Below, piece by piece: positions 1 through 62,930 of a stretch of DNA of 64,000 nucleotides. Made by a program: the position numbers and the translations under genes. Under the pieces are notes generated by a model. The model was given only the letters and a program-made list of their open reading frames with translations. It did no database searches and had not been told where the DNA came from. Position 1 is the first letter of the stretch; every line of letters begins with the position of its first letter. Origin of the DNA: Leptolyngbya sp. FACHB-8 (GTDB lineage: Bacteria > Cyanobacteriota > Cyanobacteriia > Elainellales > Elainellaceae); the NCBI RefSeq assembly GCF_014695575.1, contig NZ_JACJOO010000048.1:1-64000 (forward strand). The letters run 5' to 3'.

Positions 1-106
1 AAGGAGATTTCCAGTAATGAAATTACCCCCAGAATGTTGGTGCTTTGCCCGCGAAGCGGGCAAAGCACCAACATTCTGGGTAAATTCTTATGCAGAAACC
101 TCCTAA
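1..106. repeat. 106-bp palindromic element, copy 1 (inverted partner at 15104-15209)
   Basis: A perfect palindrome (arms 28-52 and 56-80, triloop GAA closed by C:G) sits inside imperfect outer inverted repeats that begin AGGAG(A/G)TTTC. The reverse complement of the whole block recurs at 15104-15209. The two copies are identical except that the 3-base loop is inverted. The element may start before the window edge. No protein is encoded. Confidence 0.9.
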
Positions 107-13345: not shown

Positions 13346-13500
13346 GGCTTTGGCTTACCGCTTTGTCGAGTTACATCGAGAGTTCAAGGCATTTTTGTTG
13401 TATAGGGTGTGCTTTGCGCAGCATACACAACAAGATCCAGGTTCGAGACGATGACCATCGCCCAGTCGGGTTATCCAGAGAATTCACAGTGGGCGGTAAG

Positions 13501-15103: not shown

Positions 15104-15209
15104 TTAGGAGGTTTCTGCATAAGAATTTACCCAGAATGTTGGTGCTTTGCCCGCGAAGCGGGCAAAGCACCAACATTCTGGGGGTAATTTCATTACTGGA
15201 AATCTCCTT
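15104..15209. repeat. 106-bp palindromic element, copy 2
   Basis: The inverted copy of 1-106. Perfect arms 15130-15154 and 15158-15182 with triloop GAA closed by C:G. All bases outside the loop match the reverse complement of copy 1; only the loop orientation differs. Its right edge overlaps the TAA stop codon of the DUF58 gene. Confidence 0.92.
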
Positions 15210-51190: not shown

Positions 51191-51572
51191 GTTTTTCTTA
51201 AACAGTGCGATCAATGTCCCTTCCTCACATCACACCCACGCCTGTTCGACGTATTGTTTCACGCTAGAAGATCGCGGGTTGAGATGGTTCATCCAGTAGG
51301 CATCCTTGTGAACTGTCCTATGACTTCCTTATGATGTAACCCTTCTGGAACTGACGAGTCAAAAGTGCAACTTTGAAGTTTTCAATAGGCTAGGAGTCAT
51401 GTCAAGTCCGTTGTAAAACTATCCCCCTAGAAGGAACAAAGAAGGGGTTTTAAAACTGGCAGTGTTTATATTTCATTTTTGATAGAAGTGAGTTACTCAA
51501 TCAAACATAAAATTCAAAATTTGTATGCCTTCCTGCTTGTCTATACCTCTAGTACGAATATAAAGATTGAGC
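51191..51572. other. Upstream region of the MFS transporter
   Basis: About 380 A+T-rich bases; no gene. The last nine bases (51564-51572, AGATTGAGC) are the left copy of the element's flanking repeat. Confidence 0.5.
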
Positions 51573-51705
51573 CAGCAATTCTCATTTTGAAATCAGGTCC
51601 GAAAACCGCGCGCCTTTGGCGCGCGGTTTTCGGGCTTCAAAGCCAAGAGTTCACGCCCGTAGGGCGTGAACTCTTGGCTTTGAAGCCCATACTGGAGAAT
51701 TGCTG
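51573..51705 (+). mobile_element. Three-stem palindromic transposon-like element, copy 2
   Basis: Same structure as 34854-34985: TIR CAGCAATTCTC, hairpin 51599-51633 (loop TTT) and hairpin 51632-51688 (loop GTA, 27-bp arms). AGATTGAGC flanks both sides exactly (51564-51572 and 51706-51714). Relative to copy 1 the first loop is inverted and two arm positions have compensatory changes. Confidence 0.93.
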
Positions 51706-51867
51706 AGATTGAGCCTTTTGTTGCAAATAGGCACTCATTGAACTAAAGAATTGAAGTGAATTTTAAAATCTATAAACAGTTGTAGTAAAGTTCTGTCCCC
51801 TAGAAAGAGGTGTTGATTCTCTGCAAAAACTAAGCTGTTGGGTAAGCAAGGTTAGGAGGGAATCGTG

Positions 51868-57778: not shown

Positions 57779-57783
57779 AATTC

Positions 57784-57854
57784 AAAATGAGCGTTTTCGA
57801 GTGCCGCGCAACGCGCGGCACTCGAAAACGTCCTTAACCCGAACTCAGGTTAAA
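57784..57854 (+). mobile_element. CTCAG-family element, truncated on the left
   Basis: Carries the second hairpin (57792-57830, loop AAC) and the right end CTTAACCCGAACTCAGGTTA with near identity to 29641. The left end and most of the first hairpin are missing. Confidence 0.85.
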
Positions 57855-62845: not shown

Positions 62846-62930
62846 TAATAGACCTCCTGCATGAATCAGTTCCTGAGGGTGTGAATCGTTGCGCGGTGAA
62901 GCCGCGCAACGATTCACACAGGAAGTCTAA
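62846..62930. repeat. Palindromic element, relative of 110-176
   Basis: Core hairpin 62879-62919: 18-bp arms, GAA loop closed by T:G. Outer TAATAGACCTCCTG and GGAAGTCTAATG match the reverse complement of 110-193. One arm position differs in a paired way (C:G to T:A). Confidence 0.85.

Follow-up and report, generated by a model that had tools for sequence, protein, structure and literature searches.

Loop inversion and paired arm changes in the hairpins of a high-copy MITE-like element of Leptolyngbya sp. FACHB-8

A two-hairpin element at two intergenic sites

The window, the 64,000-nt stretch of Leptolyngbya sp. FACHB-8 DNA analyzed here (contig NZ_JACJOO010000048.1, positions 1 to 64,000), contains two insertions of a single non-autonomous element of about 132 bp, both on the forward strand and both intergenic, lying between ORFs. 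Each copy starts with CAGCAATTCTC, ends in the inverted repeat of that sequence and is flanked by an exact 9-bp target-site duplication (TSD). Copy 2 (51573-51705, 133 bp) is recognized by its pair of terminal inverted repeats (TIRs; 51573-51583 on the forward strand and 51695-51705 on the reverse strand), by its TSD (AGATTGAGC at 51564-51572, repeated at 51706-51714) and by its 93% match to copy 1 (34854-34985, 132 bp), which lies between two occurrences of GCTCAAATT (34845-34853 and 34986-34994).

Both copies comprise two hairpins with 3-nt loops, the arms being 17 bp long in H1 and 27 bp long in H2. In copy 2, H1 (51598-51634, forward strand) has arms at 51598-51614 and 51618-51634 around the loop TTT (51615-51617), and H2 (51632-51688, forward strand) has perfect arms at 51632-51658 and 51662-51688 around the loop GTA (51659-51661); a GGG (51632-51634 in copy 2) is common to the two stems. 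The corresponding forward-strand features of copy 1 are H1 at 34879-34915 (arms 34879-34895 and 34899-34915, loop AAA at 34896-34898) and H2 at 34913-34969 (arms 34913-34939 and 34943-34969, loop GTA at 34940-34942). Folded as single-stranded DNA, the two window copies reach -65.0 and -64.9 kcal/mol, against -19 to -20 kcal/mol for shuffled sequences (z-scores of -16.0 and -15.2).

A first-pass annotation had proposed that copy 2, which it placed at 51564-51714 (the element itself plus both target duplications), differs from copy 1 only in paired ways and by an inverted loop. The changes it described are present: H1 has gone from G:C to A:T on both arms at element columns 31:57, H2 from A:T to T:A at columns 64:112, and the H1 loop (columns 43-45) reads TTT in place of AAA. 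The word 'only' was too strong, since copy 2 also has GT instead of TC at columns 25-26, at the base of H1, and one extra G. The former gives rise to the single T.G wobble (26:62) that had been reported at the hairpin base; the latter, which precedes the right TIR and makes the copy 133 rather than 132 bp long, had been taken for a difference of A or T next to the TIR. The observation on copy 2 is partly confirmed, and it is much stronger across the family than two copies could show.

Copy number, classification and distribution

The element occupies at least 144 distinct places in its own genome (6.93 Mb, 95 contigs), as determined by a covariance model search that gave at least 150 matches. 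Six of these were set aside: four were fragments at contig ends, and two were palindromes matched again on their opposite strand. At 112 of the 144 places the element is exactly 132 bp long; the other 32, copy 2 of the window among them, are outside the loop and pair counts given below. The 9-bp TSD is exact at 91 of the 144 places and has one mismatch at 29, two at five and more at 19. A loop-blind pattern search for exact TIR pairs recovered 78 places and its reversed control none. No two copies among the 144 places have both flanks in common, the insertion sites being unrelated, and no segmentally duplicated copies were found in the genome; a second genome of the genus (G001) carries no orthologous copies. 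Tandem copies about 9-10 bp apart occur at two loci, L062 (C65:13222-13353 and 13363-13494) and L066 (C74:37579 and 37721); at C65, the second copy seems to have taken its right half from the first, and its H2 arms are left mismatched.

Miniature inverted-repeat transposable elements (MITEs) of bacteria are a class with TIRs and target duplications. The element resembles them in its TIR, its 9-bp TSD, its length of about 132 bp, its lack of an ORF and its high copy number at unrelated sites, and is unlike them in having an interior filled by two stacked perfect hairpins. It is a high-copy non-autonomous DNA transposon, and is termed MITE-like because an autonomous relative with the same ends was not found in the two transposase families searched. 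Among candidate partners, ISAs1-type transposases (PF13808) are absent from the genome and none of the seven DDE_Tnp_1 matches (PF01609) is flanked by the element's TIR and a 9-bp TSD, and both were rejected; no element of 0.7-2.6 kb with the same TIR was present among the loci scanned. REP and REPIN elements are palindromes linked to a tyrosine transposase and are without TIR or TSD; with its TIR and 9-bp TSD, the element does not fit this description.

No identical hairpin core turned up in other genomes or viral contigs, in a search from which the genome itself was perhaps excluded. Within the family, the same ends enclose unrelated interiors in further genera (7 of 36 genomes, counting that of FACHB-8), often with 9-bp duplications, and they are also found in other cyanobacteria, Verrucomicrobia and further phyla. 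Ends of the form CAGCARTTCTCATTTTG occur in short elements across several phyla (G012, G013, G021, G023, G045 and G047; loci L216-L312), again often with 9-bp duplications. Two-hairpin interiors with unrelated stems accompany the same TIR in G012, G013 and the metagenome-assembled genome (MAG) PMM_0003; the named relatives with two-hairpin interiors are cyanobacterial.

Loop orientation within the family

Each common loop of the element occurs alongside its reverse complement at a similar frequency. Among the 112 ungapped copies, the H1 loop is AAA in 23, TTT in 27, GAA in 22, TTC in 28 and another sequence in 12, and the H2 loop is GTA in 33, TAC in 27, GAC in 9, GTC in 13, GAA in 10, TTC in 11 and another in 9; no common loop ratio departs from 1:1 (p 0.48 to 1.0). 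A similar picture emerges from the 68 of these copies that have exact TIRs, a selection blind to the loops (H1: AAA 19, TTT 18, GAA 11, TTC 18; H2: GTA 21, TAC 18, GAA 9, TTC 8, GTC 6, GAC 4). An excess of GTA in the best 30 matches was discarded as an effect of the query, which carried GTA. Counted relative to the element ends, orientation is about 50:50, contrary to the alternative named in the first-pass annotation that it always follows the flanks. Since all loop pairs except GAC/GTC differ at all three bases, the flip is best read as one event and not as three substitutions.

Loop orientation does not track ancestry. The proportion of copy pairs with concordant loops lies between 0.45 and 0.58 in each class of distance, the exception being one small class (H2, distance 0). 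Copies identical outside the loops have the same H1 orientation in 11 cases and the flipped one in 11, and for H2 the same in 13, the flipped in 7 and another loop in 4; for copies one event apart, the ratio of same to flipped is 42/45 for H1 and 42/43 for H2. On a minimum spanning tree, from which the 96 of 111 edges with a distance of at most 6 were used and the 15 longer ones dropped, nearest neighbours are separated by a flip on 42 of the 96 edges for H1 and 39 for H2, with 18 and 20 loop substitutions respectively. Flips of H1 and H2 are independent (Fisher p 0.31). Orientation is at or near equilibrium, and the loops look unconstrained.

Tossing a coin would likewise give a ratio this close to 1:1 with no trace of ancestry, and an assembler that reads a palindrome both ways could leave loop orientation undetermined in a draft of 95 contigs. 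Such an artefact is very unlikely as the source of the pattern. Contig-end prefixes of exactly 113 nt in four of nine sharing pairs (40 ends) suggest an assembly word of about 113 nt, a length well in excess of both hairpins (37 and 57 nt), on which ground small-word ambiguity was judged unlikely; arm variants on the two sides of the loop are in the correct phase, and one loop of a second family departs from 1:1 in the same assembly (loop B, 53:32, p 0.03). An effect of contig strand (canonical k-mers) was also rejected, contig-oriented loops being likewise unbiased at about 1:1.

Flipping is not universal, and its activity differs between genomes. In Verrucomicrobia and Akkermansia-labelled MAGs, where these ends enclose 20-bp arms and 14-nt loops, the loop has one orientation in 24 of 24 elements. 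The ten orientable elements of PMM_0003 have H2 loops GTA (7), TAC (1) and others (2) and H1 loops GTA (4), TAC (0), TAT (2), ATA (1) and others (3), in a search whose GTA query under-counted flips.

Paired and single changes in the arms

The covariation check proposed in the first-pass annotation bears out its claim of compensatory change. In an alignment of 33 copies (30 distinct), 12 pairs have changed on both sides, against a mean of 2.1 in shuffled alignments (0 of 500 reach 12) and at most two in controls with slid arms, and 99.4% of cells are paired. Across the 112 copies, Watson-Crick cells number 1826 of 1904 in H1 and 2920 of 3024 in H2 (27 pairs), compared with at most 780 and 991 in slid controls.

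Changes are distributed unevenly along the stems. The 96 tree edges hold 41 paired events, 77 single-arm events and one other double event, and 79 changes fall in 44 unpaired columns. Within 0-7 bp of the loop there are 13 paired and 59 single events, in mid-stem (H1 8-13, H2 8-19) 19 paired and 2 single, and at the stem base 9 paired and 16 single. The difference between near-loop and mid-stem positions is pronounced (Fisher p 1.8e-9), with the reservations that the 0-7 bp boundary was picked after the profile of this family had been viewed, that base composition differs between tip and mid-stem and that tree edges are not independent. Frequent unpaired arm changes, which the first-pass annotation had named as counting against its reading, are seen in part: they lie mostly near the loop and are nearly absent from mid-stem. 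Paired change without unpaired intermediates, a signature of template switching, is seen in mid-stem and is lacking less than 8 bp from the loop.

Compensatory change is usually taken as proof of selection for structure, and how perfect stems persist is an old question. If an RNA or DNA hairpin were needed by the element, selection on pairing combined with ordinary point mutation would yield paired changes; the strong covariation, the proportion of paired cells in the 33 copies and the recurrence of a two-hairpin plan with unrelated stems behind the same TIR (G012, G013, PMM_0003) all agree with this. It is nevertheless highly improbable as the explanation. Selection on pairing cannot produce three simultaneous loop changes to the reverse complement, and mid-stem intermediates are nearly absent. 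Mismatch cells of the A.C and G.T kinds are about equally common (58 and 51), and so offer no sign that RNA pairing in the element strand is under selection. In addition, none of seven loci searched against Rfam reached the gathering score of any family (best 38.7 bits, gathering score 60).

Inverted tips and rearranged hairpins

Imperfect tips are informative on the unit of inversion. Eight imperfect tip types, defined on the 8-bp inner arms, recur. Three of the eight are found in either orientation, the loop and its neighbouring mismatch having turned as one: CGCACGCC-AAA-GGCGCGCG, AGCCCGCC-TTC-GACGGGCT and TCACACCC-TAC-GGGCGTGA. Separate mutation of these tips is possible, though less simple than their turning as units.

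Several copies, judged by eye, have been rearranged further. In one (C46:106418-106554), the 3' arm of H1 continues into a reverse-complemented copy of the left flank, such that TTGGATTTC, which follows the 3' arm, mirrors GAAATCCAA, which precedes the 5' arm; a stem lengthened with flank sequence, a further signature of template switching, is found in this one copy. Two copies (C54:58011 and C51:66575) are 89-bp palindromes from end to end except for a 3-nt loop, with exact TSDs. At C42:95853 H2 has no loop, and at C53:71360 H1 is truncated. An element of PMM_0003 (L325, G051, at about 1525) has 63-bp perfect arms around the loop GTA and is apparently a whole-element palindrome, paralleling the 89-bp pair.

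Inversion of tips might also come about by extrusion of a cruciform that is nicked, flipped and rejoined by a junction resolvase or hairpin-processing enzyme, with paired changes arising through separate mismatch correction. Perfect arms with short loops extrude readily, the turning of mismatched tips as units fits this route, and so does the fixed orientation of the 14-nt loops of Verrucomicrobia. It is an unlikely route all the same: a second process is needed for arm homogenisation and for the flank-extended arm, and known hairpin processing would not be expected to reseal cleanly without loss of bases.

Other hairpin repeats of the same genome

A second two-hairpin MITE in the window (29640-29770, forward strand; family 2) provides an independent test within the same genome. 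Its ends differ from those of the first family, and its TSD is about 6 bp by reading, compared with 9 bp. A pattern search with both loops masked found at least 92 copies. Loop A is AAA in 46 and TTT in 33 (p 0.18), loop B is AAC in 53 and GTT in 32, and the two are independent of each other (odds ratio 0.99). Family 2 had earlier seemed strongly one-sided because the query then used carried loops; this reading was dropped as an ascertainment effect once the loop-blind pattern had given these ratios. With the loops summed, the major and minor orientations stand at 41:21, 31:18 and 27:26 at zero, one and two stem differences, a trend seen by eye, as though copies were gradually losing an ancestral orientation. 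The arms, counted in the 60 of 92 copies with one or two differences, have 7 paired and 27 single changes near the loop, against 11 paired and 7 single ones 8-15 bp away (p 0.006); with each kind of change counted once, the paired and single counts are 2/20 and 4/5 (p 0.043). At 57783-57853 lies the right half only of a family 2 element, joined to another hairpin whose stem is like that of the first family.

All compared copies are separate insertions, and it could be argued that flips accompany transposition alone, or stem from ectopic conversion between inversely paired copies, instead of arising in replicating residents; with arms identical in either direction, a donor could pair both ways. 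This is improbable: both families flip despite their different TSDs, and homology of 17-27 bp is short for recombination. The same difference in TSDs (9 bp and about 6 bp) argues against a single transposase as the cause.

Two further repeats were encountered. A third repeat (1-106, forward strand) has the loop GAA, and its inverted copy (15104-15209, reverse strand) the loop TTC; the two are identical at 103 of 106 positions, and the only differences are those of the loop at positions 53-55. A fourth hairpin repeat, at 109-177 and 62879-62929, shows a compensated C:G to T:A arm change and loops, CTTCG and TGAAG, that are nearly reverse complements.

Template switching as the proposed mechanism

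The best explanation of these observations, to which a probability of about 0.7 is given, is that DNA synthesis has time and again switched template from one hairpin arm to the other. When synthesis crosses a hairpin, the growing strand would often switch to the opposite arm, using either its own folded-back copy or the complementary strand as template, and would later switch back. Where part of the copied tract has no mirror image within the tract, one arm would be rewritten from the other, and a single-arm mutation would then be either erased or copied, the latter giving a paired change. Where part of the tract spans the loop symmetrically, it would be replaced by its own reverse complement, so that the loop and the roughly 8 bp beside it would turn over together, along with any mismatches. 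A tip zone of this size would fit a need for a paired stretch at the switch, and an occasional late or early switch back may give rise to extended stems, truncated hairpins and wholly palindromic elements.

Template switching would thus account for all of the products with one type of event. It probably acts on resident copies rather than at transposition, with replication as the likely cause and the host, not a transposase, as the likely driver. The first-pass annotation had held that either the structure is maintained or one arm is copied from the other, and that a flip arises through an arm template or a cruciform; the family as a whole supports this reading and favours copying. Copying is preferred to selection on pairing on the strength of the three-base flips, the lack of a G.T excess, the exempt tip zone and the one flank-extended arm.

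Relation to known systems

Plastids descend from cyanobacteria, and hairpin inversions in plastids were reportedly treated by Kelchner and Wendel. Ripley 1982 is referred to in PMC8604942 and PMC7202029. Phase-variable invertible elements depend on a site-specific recombinase that works on inverted repeats and inverts the regulatory segment between them; the invertible segment of the present element is 3 nt plus the tip. Template switching is a known process in phage, E. coli, yeast, rRNA genes and plastids. Its two outcomes, arm homogenisation and tip inversion, are both described in PMC8604942 and PMC8794818. The former attributes homogenisation of arms and inversion of spacers in short inverted repeats of yeast genes to template-switch (quasipalindrome) mutation, and the account given there concerns ten inversion events in coding genes across strains, whereas here the hairpins belong to a mobile element of one genome and their orientation is at or near equilibrium. 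The rRNA hairpins discussed in PMC8794818 are maintained by template switching and bear the same signature of compensatory change, stem extension and loop inversion. In the counts presented in that source, compensatory change occurs with loop inversion 6 times and loop inversion alone 69 times, in loops under selection; in the element the loops look unconstrained and inversions are the rule.

The closest natural parallel, as far as the description in PMC6824564 goes, is provided by the small inversions of plastid hairpins (flip-flop loops), which flip repeatedly and homoplasiously between short inverted repeats. These are represented in that source by single sites compared between species, with loops of 4-24 nt, whereas the element is multi-copy and mobile, has 3-nt loops and allows arm homogenisation to be measured. 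Arm-templated correction during replication in a bacterium is described for quasipalindromic lacZ reporters of E. coli (PMC7202029), an engineered system for arm correction that resembles the element in this respect. The open-licence PMC literature yielded no account of inverted loops in bacterial MITEs, and saturation of flips across bacterial MITEs is undescribed as far as that search shows. As an example of an already known mutational process, the element is strong and unusually clean, and its setting is new.

Implications and rate of inversion

More than 100 copies of the first family and at least 92 of the second serve as parallel reporters in a single genome. Paired change is accompanied here by three-base loop inversion to equilibrium, which selection on pairing cannot make, and correction fails closer to the loop than a boundary of about 8 bp. 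Covariation tests that read paired change as a sign of functional RNA would call such MITEs strong structured RNAs, and the families thus offer a natural warning and a calibration set. Measurement of flips in a living strain would give a direct rate of template switching outside E. coli and yeast.

It may be ventured, tentatively and with considerable doubt, that every short-loop perfect hairpin of this bacterium is in constant motion, that resident tips invert many times faster than bases mutate, that growing cultures mix both orientations at each locus and that the same process builds and polishes the perfect palindromes of the mobile elements, by lengthening stems and by making entire elements palindromic. 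If true, MITE hairpins would be products of hyperactive template switching and not of structure selection. The loss of SbcCD was considered as a cause of flipping and rejected, given that an SbcC gene is present in the genome; no obvious repair defect thus explains the rate. One copy of the element (C83:262117-262248) directly adjoins sbcC (C83:262327-265437).
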